This document shows, piece after piece, positions 2,674 to 57,009 of a DNA stretch of 64,000 bases. The translations under genes and the position numbers were made by a program. Positions within the stretch are counted from its first letter, which is position 1. Each line of letters starts with the position of its first letter. Origin of the DNA: Ignavibacteria bacterium (lineage in GTDB: Bacteria > Bacteroidota > Ignavibacteria > Ignavibacteriales > SURF-24). The notes beneath the pieces were generated by a model. That model ran no database searches. It saw only the letters and a list, made by a program, of their open reading frames with translations, and was not told the origin of the DNA. The stretch spans positions 1-64,000 of the forward strand of contig JAAXKQ010000015.1 of assembly GCA_025612245.1 (NCBI GenBank). Direction: 5' to 3'.

Positions 2674-4764
2674 TCAGCTCCTTAGCATCTTTCTGTTATT
2701 TTTTGCGGAAAACTGCTCTTCATGTAACGTCCTGAGTGAATCACCTTCCAGCTTAAATCTCGAAACAAGATCCTGCAGGTTGACAGTCAGGCGGTTCAAG
2801 TCCTCTGCCGCCCTTGCAATCTGCTCGGTCCCGGCTGCACTCTGCTGTGTAACCGAGGTGATGCCTTCAATGTTCTTACTGATCTGCTCGGCTGCACTCG
2901 ACTGCTCTTCACTGGCAACAGCCACCTGTGTAACCATGTCCGAAACCTTCTGGTTCATTTCCAGTATCTGAGTAAGCACCAGTGCCACATTTTCCGTCAG
3001 CATCATTCCTTCTTCAACTGCCCTGGAGGCACCATCCATGGATGCATCAGCTTCCTTGGCCTCCGACTGTATCTGCTTTATTGTGTCTGCTATCTCTTTT
3101 GTCGCCTTGGTGGTCCGTTCTGCAAGCTTTCTTACCTCGTCTGCTACTACTGCAAAGCCACGCCCCTGCTCACCGGCACGGGCAGCCTCAATTGCTGCAT
3201 TTAAGGCTAAGAGGTTCGTCTGGTCTGCTATGTCGTCAATTACCTGCGTGATCTCTCCGATCTGGTCGGTTTTCCTGGCAAGAGAGGTTATTTTCTCTCC
3301 GGTTAGCTTTGTCGCATCAACTATCCTCAGCATTCCTTTTTTCGTGTCTTCTACTTTCTTTGTACCTTCCTTTGCACTGTCGCTTGCAAGGCGCGAGTTC
3401 TCGGCTGCCTTGGAGCTATTCTGTGTGCTTTCAAATATTGTTTTTGTCATCTGTTCAATTGCGCTGGCTACTTCTGTTGCCTGCTGTGCCTGCTCATGGC
3501 TTCCGGCAGCCATTTGCTCGGAAGAAGAGGATATCTCGCTGGCCGAACTGGCCGTAGCTTCAGTAGCTTCATGTACCTGCAGAAGAAGTGAGTTCAGCGA
3601 TTCGGCAAGGTTATTTGCATTTTGCTGCATCTGGCGGTAGTCTCCTTTATATTCTCCCGTCATCCTTGCCGTTAGGTCGCCAAGGGCAACTTTTTCTACC
3701 ACTACTTCATAAGAACGTATATTGTCCATTATTGTATCCAGGGTGTTATTTATTCCTGAAACAATCTTTTTGTAGCCTCCGCTGAATTTATCTGCATTTC
3801 CGCGCTTCGAAAGCTGCCCTTCTACTGCAGCCTTTGTCAGTTCATTTGTTTCTTCAACCAGTTCCCTCAGGTTCTTCGTAATTGCATTCAGTGCCGGGGC
3901 CAGCCTGTCCTTGCTGTCGTAAAGCGGCAGCTCAATGGAAACGTCTCCCTGTGAAATTGCATGCATCCCTTCGGCAAATTTTTCCAGCTGAAACGCATAT
4001 TCATCGAGCACCTTTGCCATTATGCCAATCTCATCATTCGAATCGACATTCGCTCTTGCCTCAACGTGCCCTTTCTGCAGTTCCTGCGCCATATTGAGTA
4101 CTTTGCCTATGGGGCGCTTGATCATCCTGGAAATATAGATTCCAAAACCTATTGAAATTGCTACACCTATAAACATGAAAACATACATGGCCGAAACTGC
4201 CGAACTGGCTTCTTCCGAATTATTCGCCGAGATCTTTTCACCCTCGGCAAGGTTAAACTTAACCCAGTCTTCTATTGCATCCTGGTAGGCTATGGCCGAC
4301 TTGGTCATATCGCCAAGCAGTACAGCCCTTGCCTCATCGTCCTTATTTGCAAGAGCCAGATCCTGAACCACTTTCAGGTACGTCCTGTAATCGGCCCTTT
4401 TTTCTTCTGCAGTCCTTGCAAGCGCCTTTTCCTCTTCTGTCTGTGCAACTTTCTTGCAGAATTCAACTTCTTCAGTAATTACCCTGGAATCCTGCGCCAT
4501 ATCGTCAATGTATTCACGGATCTTGCCGCTTTCATTTTCCATGACTGCCTTTAGCGTGGAAAGCCTTACGTGCTGATAGCGCTGAAGAACATCTCCAAGC
4601 TTGGAAATTGGAACTGCATTATCCTGCCACATTTCTGAGCTGGATTTGGCAACATTATTAAGATTGTACGTACCAACCAGCCCTATTACAGCGGCAATTA
4701 ATGCCACAATACAAAAGCTTACAACTAGTCTCGCACCGATTTTTAGGTTAACGAACCACTTCAT
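2674..4764 (-). CDS. Methyl-accepting chemotaxis protein with four-helix-bundle sensor and HAMP repeats
   Basis: 696-residue chemoreceptor. Order: membrane helix (about residues 10-32), periplasmic four-helix-bundle sensor (to about 185), second membrane helix (about 195-215), HAMP domain followed by two or more further HAMP-like helical modules (up to about 400), then the MCP signalling domain with hairpin tip [17 protein letters not shown]. The start MKWFVNLK at 4764 is chosen over 4791 because GGAGAGG lies just upstream. Positions 2802-3412 are identical to the neighbouring receptor gene at 1-611, while the sensor halves are unrelated, so the two receptors probably feed the same array with different inputs. 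It ends at the shared terminator at 2624. Confidence 0.95.
2802..3412. repeat. 611-bp perfect direct repeat, copy B
   Basis: Identical to 1-611. The copy lies wholly inside the signalling domain of the chemoreceptor at 2674-4764. The right boundary (3412/3413) is sharp, with diverged but homologous coding sequence immediately beyond. This is the pattern left by gene conversion or a recent partial duplication. Confidence 0.97.
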
Positions 4765-33171: not shown

Positions 33172-34482
33172 ATGCATTCATTAAGTTTATCGAAAATATT
33201 CAGGTTCTGGCTCCCCCTTGCAGCCACCTGGCTGATGATGTCCGTTGAAGGGCCATATCTTTCGGCTATCATTGCCAGAATGCCAAACGCAAAATACAAC
33301 CTGGCGGCTTATGGCGTGGCTTTTTCATTTGCCATGATCGTTGAGGCCCCGATCATAATGATGCTGAGCGCTTCGGTTGCAATTGTAAAAAACAGGTACA
33401 CTTTCTTCAAGCTTAGAAACTTTGTTTACACGCTTAACCTGATTATTACGGCTCTGATTGTGCTTTTTGTTGCACCCCCGGTCTTCTATTACGTGGCCGA
33501 AAACCTGGTCATGTTGCCCCCGGAAGTAGCCAGACTTACACACATTGCCACAATTATCCTAATCCCATGGCCTGCCGCAATTGGCTACAGGAGGTTTTAC
33601 CAGGGAATTCTGATCAGGAACAATATGACGCGCAGGGTTGCATACGGCACCATTGTGCGCTTAAGCTCAATGTCTCTTACCGCACTCTTAATGTTTCTTT
33701 TTACCGGCCTCAACGGGGCTATAGTGGGAGCTTCGGCTCTTTCGGCTGGCGTCGTAAGCGAGGCAATTGCAAGCAGGATAATGGCATTAAAAGCCGTTAA
33801 TAATCTACTCCACGAGGAAACAAATGGGCAGAAAGAGCATCTTTCCTATAAAGAGATAATTAACTTTTACTACCCGCTTGCTCTTACTTCCATCCTTACT
33901 CTGGCCGTAAACCCGATGATTACTTTTTTCATGGGACAGAGCCTAATGCCTCTCGAATCGCTTGCAGTCTTGCCCGTGATAAACTCTTTTATTTTTATCT
34001 TTAAGAGCTTCGGCGTCTCATACCAGGAGACCGCAATTGCCTTAATAGGTGAAAATAAAAAGGAGTATCACCCGCTGCGCAACTTTGCAATTATCCTTGC
34101 CGTAGCCTCTGCCGGAGCCCTCCTTCTCATTGCCTTTCTTCCCCTGGCAGACGTCTGGTTTATCGGCATCTCCGGCCTGTCAAACGACCTGGCCTCAATT
34201 GCAAGGCTTCCACTCATGATATTGGCCTTAATTCCGGCCCTGGAGGTCTTAATCAGCTTCCAGAGAGCCATGTTGGTCGATTCCAGAGAAACCGGCTTCA
34301 TAACGACTGCTACTGCAATTGAGGTTGGCGGAATTATTCTGACACTCTTCATTACAATTAAATATCTTGCTTTTGTTGGCGTAGTTGCGGCTGCCCTGGC
34401 TATGATGTTAGGAAGAATTGGCGCAAACATTTACCTATTCCCCCCTTTCCTGAAATTCAGGAACCCCAAAAAGGAACAATAA
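33172..34482 (+). CDS. Multi-pass membrane transporter, MATE/ANKH-like (MOP superfamily)
   Basis: 436 residues with about 12 hydrophobic helices (residues 10-425) and short loops. The layout and the start FWLPLAATWLMMSVEGPYLS resemble flippase-like members of the MOP superfamily (MATE, progressive-ankylosis proteins). The substrate cannot be inferred. The ATG at 33172 is preferred to an upstream TTG at 33109, whose extra residues are neither helix-like nor preceded by a ribosome site. It is monocistronic; the hairpin at 34518-34551 lies past its stop. Confidence 0.75.
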   Translation: MHSLSLSKIFRFWLPLAATWLMMSVEGPYLSAIIARMPNAKYNLAAYGVAFSFAMIVEAPIIMMLSASVAIVKNRYTFFKLRNFVYTLNLIITALIVLFVAPPVFYYVAENLVMLPPEVARLTHIATIILIPWPAAIGYRRFYQGILIRNNMTRRVAYGTIVRLSSMSLTALLMFLFTGLNGAIVGASALSAGVVSEAIASRIMALKAVNNLLHEETNGQKEHLSYKEIINFYYPLALTSILTLAVNPMITFFMGQSLMPLESLAVLPVINSFIFIFKSFGVSYQETAIALIGENKKEYHPLRNFAIILAVASAGALLLIAFLPLADVWFIGISGLSNDLASIARLPLMILALIPALEVLISFQRAMLVDSRETGFITTATAIEVGGIILTLFITIKYLAFVGVVAAALAMMLGRIGANIYLFPPFLKFRNPKKEQ

Positions 34483-34510
34483 ACTGATTGCTTTTGCCTG
34501 AAAGAGATAT

Positions 34511-34551
34511 AAAAAAAAGTGCAGCTACAAGCCTCTGCCCGCAGCTGCACT
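34511..34551 (-). terminator. Intrinsic terminator for GHL10 gene 1
   Basis: Nine-bp stem AGTGCAGCT / AGCTGCACT (34518-34526 and 34543-34551). On the minus strand it is followed by a run of eight T. It may also stop the convergent transporter transcript weakly. Confidence 0.88.
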
Positions 34552-55033: not shown

Positions 55034-55664
55034 TCCTTGCGCTGAGGAATAACTTATCTGTAGAAAGGGATTCATTATCCCCCAAAACAGTCCTCCGCGA
55101 AGGACTATATATATAGAAAGAGAAAGCCGCCCCGACCTTCCCCAGAGCTCCGGAGGATCTACACGTCTATGTCAGAAAATTCACCACCATCCCTTTCCCG
55201 AGCCCTGTAAGAGGCAACCTGCCCGTAGAAAATACCGCACGAAAAAATTTCAGAGCCTCAAAGAGGCGATTTACATATAGATAATAAAAGCTATATTCCC
55301 CCTCCCCCAGAGCCCAAGATAGGCGACTTTTCTATAGAAAGAGAGACAATCCAACTCCACCCAGAGCCCTGGAAGGGCAATTTGTCTGTAGAAAATGATT
55401 CCTCCTCCCTCCAAGAGCCTCGGAGAGGCGATTTGTCTGTAGAAAAAAAAGAGGCAACTATCCCCCTTCCCCAGAGCGCTGGAAGGGCGACTTGCCTGAA
55501 GAAATCGATTTGTCTTACAACCTTCTTTTGAGCTTCGGAGGAACGATTGTTTGTAGAAAATGATACCTCCCCTCCTTCAGAGCCTCGGAGAGGCGACTTG
55601 TTTGTAGAAAAAAGGAGGCACCTCCCCCTCCCCCAGAGCTCCGGCAGGAGCGACTTGTAAAATC
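55034..55664 (+). repeat. Upstream array of about 12 palindromic repeats (REP-like)
   Basis: Consensus unit: CAGA, a five-bp stem GCCTC-GGA-GAGGC, then GACTTGTTTGTAGAAAA. Stem cores start at about 55034, 55089, 55144, 55203, 55255, 55312, 55366, 55417, 55476, 55532, 55582 and 55638. Spacing is 50-59 bases, with pyrimidine-rich filler (TCCCCCTCCCCCAG-like). Several stems carry paired changes that keep base-pairing: GCCCT/AGGGC (55366), GCTCC/GGAGC (55638), AGTCCT/AGGACT (55089). The most upstream units are the most degenerate. All run in the same orientation as the transposase gene that follows. Confidence 0.85.
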
Positions 55665-55755
55665 TTTGTGCTATAATTCACCCCATTAAATCCCAATTCA
55701 TTTTACCTTCACCTAAATACATAAAACCAAAACATTCACAAAAGGAAACAACTAT

Positions 55756-56226
55756 ATGGCCGACACATTCAGCCAAATATACCTGCACATTGTGTTTGCT
55801 GTCAGATCCAGGGAACACCTTATCAAACCCTCATTTTCCGAAGAGCTGCAGAAATATATCACGGGAATTGTTAAAAGCCATAACTGCAAGATTCTCGCCA
55901 TAAAAGCCATGACTGACCATGTGCATATGTTCATCTCCTACGTCCCGGGCTCTTCTGTTGCGGATATGGTAAGAGACGTAAAGGCTTATTCATCGGAGTT
56001 CATTAAAAAAAACTGGTCCAATGGTTTTTCATGGCAGCAAGGCTACGGCGTATTCTCACACTCCAGGAGCCAGATAAACCAGGTGATACAGTACATTCAG
56101 AACCAGGAAGAGCACCACAGACATAAATCATTCAGGGAGGAATACATGAAGATACTGAGGGATTTTGCAGTCGAAATGGGAAATAAGGAAGCGTTTGAGT
56201 GGATAAAGGACGGGGAGAATAAATAA
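55756..56226 (+). CDS. IS200/IS605-type Y1 (REP-associated) transposase
   Basis: 156 residues, a full-length TnpA-like HUH single-strand DNA transposase. The HUH pair is His55-Val-His57 (DHVHMF). The nucleophile is predicted to be Tyr113, with Gln117 four residues later (QYIQNQ), the Y-x3-Q spacing of IS200/IS605 TnpA. Such enzymes cut single-stranded DNA at hairpins. It is flanked by arrays of small palindromes (55034-55664 upstream, 56274-56735 downstream), and the two nearest downstream copies are inverted, as in RAYT/REP systems. AAGGA lies about 9 bases before the start. No accessory tnpB was seen. It is intact and probably active or domesticated. Confidence 0.92.
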   Translation: MADTFSQIYLHIVFAVRSREHLIKPSFSEELQKYITGIVKSHNCKILAIKAMTDHVHMFISYVPGSSVADMVRDVKAYSSEFIKKNWSNGFSWQQGYGVFSHSRSQINQVIQYIQNQEEHHRHKSFREEYMKILRDFAVEMGNKEAFEWIKDGENK

Positions 56227-56273
56227 TTGTAAAGGAATAACATAATTTATTTTTATTCACCTCCAAAGATGCC

Positions 56274-56357
56274 TCTACAAGTCGCCTCTCCGAGGCTCTA
56301 TGATGGGGGTGGGAAAACAATTTTTCTACAGACAAGTCGTTCCTCCGGAACTCTATA
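56274..56357 (-). repeat. Two inverted copies of the palindromic repeat just after the transposase
   Basis: Reading the minus strand, the cores are GCCTC-GGA-GAGGC (56284-56296), followed by GACTTGTAGA, and GTTCC-GGA-GGAAC (56339-56351), followed by GACTTGTCTGTAGAAAAA. The second stem differs from the consensus by paired substitutions yet stays fully complementary. Confidence 0.85.
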
Positions 56358-56495
56358 TGGGATATAGTCGTCTTGCTTTTCCCCCGATTCTCGAAGAGAT
56401 CGGATGGAATCAATAATGGAATTAACGCGTATAATTCATACACAAGTTGCCCATTACCGCCAGCCCGCCTCAAGCCTTACGAGTCCATCAATTCA

Positions 56496-56735
56496 AAACC
56501 CTATAAGGGCAACTTACCTGTAGCAGAAGATTCACCCCCTGCCCTCTCCCGGGCCTCAAAGAGGCGACTTGTATGTAGAAAGAGAGCCACCTCCTTCAGA
56601 GCCTCGGAGAGGCGACTTGTTTGTAGAAAAAAGAGCCACCTCCCCCTCCCCCAGAGCCTCGGAGAGGCGACTTGTTTGTAGAAAAAAGAGCCACCTCCCC
56701 CTCCCCCAGAGCCTCGGAGAGGCGACTTGTCCATA
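56496..56735 (+). repeat. Downstream array of five direct palindromic repeats
   Basis: Cores at 56499 (CCCT-ATA-AGGG), 56553 (GCCTC-AAA-GAGGC), 56601, 56656 and 56711 (all GCCTC-GGA-GAGGC). The last three form a nearly perfect tandem with a 55-base period that includes the pyrimidine-rich filler, so they were amplified recently. The final unit is cut short after GACTTGT. Confidence 0.88.
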
Positions 56736-57009
56736 TCGGACCTTCACATCAATATCTTCATCTACCCAAACATCCGACATGGTGTCCTTCCGAATTCCCA
56801 ACCACGTCACTCAGACACCAACTCCTAACATTGGCTCACTTTTTAATTTCTAACTTTTTTCCCCCGGGGAGCTTCATTTCATCCCCCGATTCTTACGCTT
56901 CAGACAGCTTATTCGGCACCCCGGTCCCATTGATCTTTTTCCAATTAATGCCAAGCCTTAATTTTCGTATGTCAGTTAATTACCAGCACATTAAAAGATG
57001 GGGCGCCAT
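56735..57009. other. Intergenic region between repeat array and efflux operon
   Basis: Pyrimidine-rich sequence with a CCCCCGGGG palindrome near 56862, similar to palindromic words at about 29140 and 49242. No gene recognised. It presumably holds the efflux operon promoter. Confidence 0.5.

Follow-up and report, generated by a model that had tools for sequence, protein, structure and literature searches.

The window (the whole stretch of DNA that was analysed, 64,000 nt) contains a tnpA gene for a Y1 HUH transposase, with a response regulator gene on one side and an efflux operon on the other, set within an array of short hairpin units (Table 1). The reading frame is open and intact, and the residues His 55, His 57, Tyr 113, and Gln 117 are all present and invariant among 27 aligned proteins, which confirms the description of an intact IS200/IS605-like TnpA in an earlier note on this DNA. 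The protein matches the Pfam family Y1_Tnp (PF01797) at 8.9e-27 (94.1 bits against a cut-off of 23) and passes the NCBIfam IS200 model with 80.3 bits against 55. Its predicted fold has a mean pLDDT of 85, and the structures closest to it are those of the ISDra2 and IS608 TnpA proteins. Between congeners the gene has a dN/dS of 0.06-0.09, and its copy number in this genome (G000) is low, with three full-length copies and a few fragments. Elsewhere in the window, two chemotaxis-receptor-like genes about 2.8 kb apart contain identical stretches (positions 300-650 and 3100-3300), which are a recent tandem duplication.

By its Y---Q--HH motif (YIQNQEEHH), the window TnpA fits subclass 1.2 of the TnpA-Y1 proteins; its C-terminal region, residues 122-150, is conserved and has a predicted helix at 126-136. 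Subclass 1.2 was described as having this motif and a specific conserved C-terminal domain, as occurring mostly in Bacteroidetes and Cyanobacteria at low copy number, as generally lacking typical IS200 ends, and as not sharing the properties of insertion sequences (PMC6006769, 2018). No REP partner of the subclass is reported there. The automatic search in that study looked for GTAG or GTGG 0-2 nt 5' of a 7-20 bp stem, and such a search would miss the units described here. We had first filed the protein under TnpA-Y1 class 3, from the CAGA found 5' of many units in this genus, and dropped that assignment because the tyrosine motif and the 2018 description fit subclass 1.2. Class 3 (PMC6006769) also has atypical high-copy hairpins, and its CnGA foot resembles the CAGA of the genus units, but it has a Y----Q motif and is found in other phyla, and the CAGA foot is not conserved beyond this genus.

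Table 1. Positions of tnpA, of the hairpin units around it, and of an orthologous site without them in the window
Feature	Position	Strand	Remarks
Site without tnpA and hairpins; G001 has tnpA and units there	34455..34512		about 57 bp, where L118 has about 1 kb
Decayed unit	55042..55066	+	model R1, 15.1 bits
Decayed unit AGTCCT/AGGACT, tail ATATATATAGAAA	55089..55119	+	read directly
Decayed unit GCTCC-GGA-GGATC	55144..55170	+	read directly
Decayed unit	55198..55231	+	model R1, 14.5 bits
Hairpin unit GCCTC/GAGGC	55251..55283	+	model R1, 38.1 bits
Hairpin unit, imperfect stem	55308..55340	+	model R1, 40 bits
Hairpin unit GCCCT/AGGGC	55362..55394	+	model R1, 46.2 bits
Hairpin unit GCCTC/GAGGC	55413..55445	+	model R1, 49.6 bits
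Hairpin unit GCGCT/AGGGC, one mismatch	55472..55504	+	model R1, 42.2 bits
Hairpin unit GCTTC/GGAAC, imperfect	55528..55559	+	model R1, 34.5 bits
Consensus hairpin unit GCCTC-GGA-GAGGC-GACTTGTTTGTAGAAA	55578..55610	+	model R1, 53.8 bits
Innermost upstream unit GCTCC/GGAGC, ends after GACTTGT	55634..55667	+	model R1, 25.6 bits
tnpA, Y1 HUH transposase, 156 aa	55756..56226	+	HVH at 55-57, Y113, Q117, motif YIQNQEEHH (113-121)
Innermost downstream unit, inverted, ends after GACTTGT	56268..56300	-	model R1, 33.2 bits
Inverted unit GTTCC/GGAAC, full tail	56323..56355	-	model R1, 49.2 bits
Decayed unit	56494..56526	+	model R1, 14.1 bits
Hairpin unit GCCTC/GAGGC	56549..56581	+	model R1, 41.5 bits
Consensus hairpin unit	56597..56629	+	model R1, 53.8 bits
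Consensus hairpin unit	56652..56684	+	model R1, 53.8 bits
Last array unit, tail lost after GACTTGT	56707..56739	+	model R1, 37.4 bits

A covariance model of the unit (R1, built from 25 units) gave 14 strong and 3 weak matches around tnpA, between 55042 and 56739, and no convincing match elsewhere in the window. With two further decayed copies read by eye, the total comes to about 19, the number given in the earlier note, and the stem variants quoted there (GCCTC/GAGGC, GCCCT/AGGGC, GCTCC/GGAGC, GTTCC/GGAAC, and AGTCCT/AGGACT) were all found. The tail is conserved, as had been claimed, but the form given for it needs correction: the full tail is GACTTGTYTGTAGAAA, and it is shorter in the units adjoining tnpA and in the last unit of the array, which end after GACTTGT.

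Among the 25 units, 97.6% of the cells are paired and 28 cells have changed on both sides, compared with 7.3 in shuffles and with 0-2 when the partner was slid by 1-3 columns. Because some of these units had been picked as hairpins, the test was repeated on sites picked by the tail alone in the available stretches of G000 and its congener, G001. A perfect 5-bp stem was present in 80 of these 130 sites (mean 8.3 and maximum 16 when the 3' arms were redealt), and 17 different stems were represented. The hairpins are maintained by paired stem changes; the covariance model and covariation test suggested in the earlier note gave a signal, and the compensatory changes that it had read from the array go beyond chance. 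Folding energy alone gives no support for the structure, since the z-scores of single 46-nt units are weak (-0.5 to -1.5), and it is the covariation that supports it. A search of Rfam with the units returned no relevant match; one to mir-662 was far below the cut-off and is meaningless.

Related loci were drawn from the order and its relatives (96 genomes) and from named Bacteroidota, Dyadobacter, Flavobacterium, Algoriphagus, Maribellus, and Gaoshiqia among them. Within 500 bp of about 70 related tnpA genes there are 254 hairpins of at least 6 bp, against 17 in shuffled sequence and 32 in the far flanks. The degenerate tail TRTTTRTAGMAA starts exactly 9 nt past the loop in 170 of 194 units, at 54 loci, and this distance is anchored on the loop, being the same for 5-bp and 9-bp stems. 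Because the degenerate form was set after some loci had been viewed, we ran a stricter hold-out test with the exact tail of the window, TGTTTGTAGAAA, solely on loci outside the genus (n=62). This gave 143 hairpin-tail pairs at exactly 9 nt, with 0.2 expected per shuffle (one in five shuffles), and no 9-nt pairs more than 1 kb from tnpA. A scan for the tail alone, at 10 of 16 matches, gave only the chance level.

In the hold-out set the loop on the tail strand was G..A 149 times and T..C twice, a bias that points to that strand as the likely substrate. The sequence 5' of the stem shows no conservation across the family, with neither a guide signal nor a GTAG/GTGG foot, and the CAGA foot is conserved in the genus alone. 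Pairing of a guide with a cut site, as in IS608, was considered and is not claimed, given the lack of a family-wide 5' signal. The hairpin-tail units, in their fixed geometry around dozens of tnpA genes, are very probably a DNA partner for subclass 1.2.

At least one unit occurs at 59 of 89 loci encoding a Y---Q--HH protein (206 units, against 3.6 expected). Their presence is clustered on the TnpA tree, where 13 changes are needed and all shuffles required more. Most members of a 71-protein clade that includes the window TnpA have units, with about a tenth or more of the tnpA genes in the clade lacking a nearby unit of this type; beside the more distant Y---Q--HH proteins tested there is either no unit or one match that looks like chance. 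Two relatives on cyanobacterial plasmids (L186 and L187) lack both the subclass motif and units. The further apart two TnpA proteins are, the more their units differ in stem, loop, linker, and tail (Mantel P 0.001-0.008), a correlation that fits co-inheritance and is by itself no proof of molecular co-evolution.

A genome-wide search, as the earlier note had advised, found the units dispersed. A genus-specific model, with 150 candidates scored per genome, identified at least 80 copies in G000 and at least 86 in G001, and no units among the 150 candidates scored in each of eight other genomes of the order. Outside the genus, two genomes that have a tnpA of this kind were scanned with a strict pattern of hairpin plus tail, which found 19 dispersed copies in one and 10 in the other; of six control genomes, five had no match and the sixth had one, as did its reversed control. 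The outcome that the note had named as telling against it, repeats at this locus alone and no covariation, did not come true.

Many of the copies in G000 and G001 are grouped by four in elements about 200 bp long, arranged + + - - with approximately 45-60 nt from one unit start to the next, and the G001 tnpA copies share this layout with the gene in the middle. One four-unit element folds single-stranded at z = -11.9, and in this fold its two outer hairpins sit at the base of a long stem that the paired tails form. A reading of the dispersed AGAGCTCCGGAAGGAGCGACTTGT copies as clean insertions of single units was rejected, because these copies are embedded in longer composite repeats and do not show the unit boundaries with certainty. 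Mosaic copies elsewhere switch sequence at GACTTGT, where the inner and last units of the array stop, which suggests, as a lead, a possible junction at this point.

For 17 G001 loci we looked for the flanking sequence in G000, which allowed a comparison of 12 orthologous regions. The alignment runs straight through at one of them, a second has units on both sides, a third keeps a unit remnant, and a fourth aligns on one side only; in the remaining regions the G000 spacer is without the four-hairpin element. Two G001 tnpA copies face G000 spacers of 57 and 77 bp, and the site of the window tnpA holds an unrelated gene in G001. Together these differences show turnover, gain in G001 and loss in G000 being indistinguishable at any one site. 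The exact ends of the elements and their target motif are not readable from the unoccupied sites, because the spacers of the two species are too diverged. The two G001 tnpA copies are old, with a dS of 0.47, which means that tnpA itself seldom moves. The three sites at which the two species have a tnpA of the subtype (window 34455-34512, window 55034-56739, and L145 3546-3623) all fall within about 55 kb of a single syntenic contig, which may reflect local movement or chance.

We interpret the locus as a REPtron-like module, with a probability of roughly three in four, in which a subclass-1.2 Y1 HUH single-strand nuclease has the hairpin units as its cognate DNA sites. The conserved catalytic residues, the predicted fold, the geometry, covariation, dispersal, and co-occurrence of the units, and their presence or absence at orthologous sites all support this interpretation. 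When a strand is exposed in replication or repair, a unit would fold into a stem of 5-9 bp with a short loop, most often G..A. TnpA would bind the hairpin, presumably on the tail-bearing strand, together with the TRTTTRTAGMAA tail held 9 nt from the loop, and would nick nearby through Tyr 113 and rejoin the ends. The cut might fall after GACTTGT, the point at which the inner and last units end. In this way elements of two or four hairpins, at times together with the tnpA block, could be copied or moved to other intergenic sites. The case seems to us evenly balanced for a wider proposal, that a large subclass-1.2 clade in the Bacteroidota has its own hairpin system, with a 3' recognition and cleavage tail fixed 9 nt from the loop at any stem length and mobilising two- and four-hairpin elements, and that this would be a second, independent REPtron-like origin, from class-1 transposases.

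The protein is of class 1 by sequence and predicted fold, at three sites in the two species tnpA and its array are found or missing together, as one block, and the four-hairpin elements resemble the block minus tnpA. These observations would agree with an ordinary IS200/IS605 insertion sequence whose end hairpins were multiplied by local duplication and whose dispersed units are remnants or deletion derivatives. We nevertheless consider that origin unlikely, as there are hundreds of units per one or two gene copies, the ends appear inverted and symmetric instead of consisting of one left and one right hairpin on one strand, and the gene combines low copy number with strong purifying selection and long persistence. 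In addition, distant relatives are surrounded by units of the same geometry with different stems. It is highly improbable that the hairpins act chiefly as RNA (terminators or stabilisers of mRNA 3' ends) or as sites for chromosome proteins, with an incidental link to tnpA. Although the units are intergenic and REPs elsewhere have such side roles (PMC3733652), a conserved tail and not a run of T comes after the hairpin, Rfam offers nothing relevant, the hairpin excess drops from near tnpA to the far flanks, and stem and tail track the TnpA sequence.

The earlier note had taken the enzyme for a RAYT. The layout is indeed REPtron-like, GTAG is present in the tail, and the RAYT structure 4er8 is a weaker match to the predicted fold, but a canonical RAYT with GTAG-type REPs is scarcely credible here. 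The window TnpA misses the NCBIfam model for REP-associated tyrosine transposases by far (33.7 bits against a cut-off of 80) and passes the IS200 model, and it has the Y---Q--HH motif of subclass 1.2, not RAYT signatures. The 5' GTAG foot that defines REPs is absent from the hairpins; their GTAG lies 3' of the hairpin, 14 nt past the loop.

A REPtron-like module of the kind we favor has much in common with the TnpA-REP/RAYT systems and their REPs, BIMEs, and REPINs (PMC8266576, PMC3116915), namely one intact gene among many palindromes of its own, dispersed inverted doublets, sequence families matched to the enzyme, and purifying selection on the gene. It differs in having a class-1 enzyme, a 3' recognition motif at a fixed distance from the loop without a 5' GTAG foot, stems of just 5 bp, and four-hairpin elements. 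With IS608 and ISDra2 it shares the predicted enzyme fold, the catalytic residues, and imperfect palindromes as putative recognition sites, but there is no TnpB, no single pair of left and right ends was identified, no family-wide 5' guide is visible, and the units are many, inverted as well as tandem. The ends of the tnpA block appear inverted and multiple, with no IS200-type end pair identified and the exact ends blurred by diverged spacers. The GTAG and CGTC palindromic repeat families (PMC3733652) are likewise small palindromes between genes that fall into subfamilies with compensatory stems and form dimers and clusters, but differ in the tag sequence, its position, and the enzyme. The Y---Q--HH motif, apparently a C-terminal extension, low copy number, and occurrence mostly in Bacteroidetes are shared with subclass 1.2 as described (PMC6006769); what differs is the specific hairpin-tail unit found here in one large part of the subclass.

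REP-like systems as such are well known. The suggestion that this repeat, with its tail, might be an undescribed family has held up so far, no description of the tail having been found in the open-access papers searched. Measured against those papers, what appears new is that subclass 1.2 is paired with a specific DNA unit, that the 3' tail keeps a fixed distance from the loop, and that elements of four hairpins occur. Subclass 1.2, defined in 2018 without a reported DNA partner, gains a testable substrate from the fixed-geometry unit. If the interpretation is true, REP-like domestication has arisen from class-1 transposases too, besides the RAYT lineage. Such a system would account for a widespread class of non-autonomous elements and short palindromic repeats in the genomes of Bacteroidota. 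Its enzyme-hairpin pairs, whose stems vary naturally from one to the next, offer a series in which single-strand DNA recognition can be studied.

Several minor observations were made on the repeats and on the other tnpA genes. A longer dispersed composite repeat is present on G000 contigs C5, C9, C12, C27, C33, C36, C37, and C40 (L147-L164), where one internal hairpin has 18 copies and its reversed control has none; the repeat contains two units with differing middle segments. A 14-nt palindrome, TCAGCCGCGGCTGA, is inserted between the first stem and TGTAG in some units of L118 (approximately 1947-1983), L119, L202, and L205; in L119 it is found at both outermost ends of the tnpA block. In the genomes of L094 and L089 (G100 and G097), tailed hairpins form inverted pairs with a spacing of about 80-130 bp, the two stems often differing, in the manner of REPIN doublets. 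The second full-length tnpA paralog of G000 (L042, C22:123914-124360, 47%) has its own hairpins, TATCCGC-GCTA-GCGGATA followed by CCTGTTTGTAGAA, as well as a second palindrome, GGACCAC/GTGGTCC, so that G000 contains units with the same tail and different stems. The third paralog (L041, C22:41640-42101, 59%) has AACTCC/GGAGTT hairpins on its flanks, along with long GTAGCCCGGGGT...ACCCCGGG palindromes whose tails are different.
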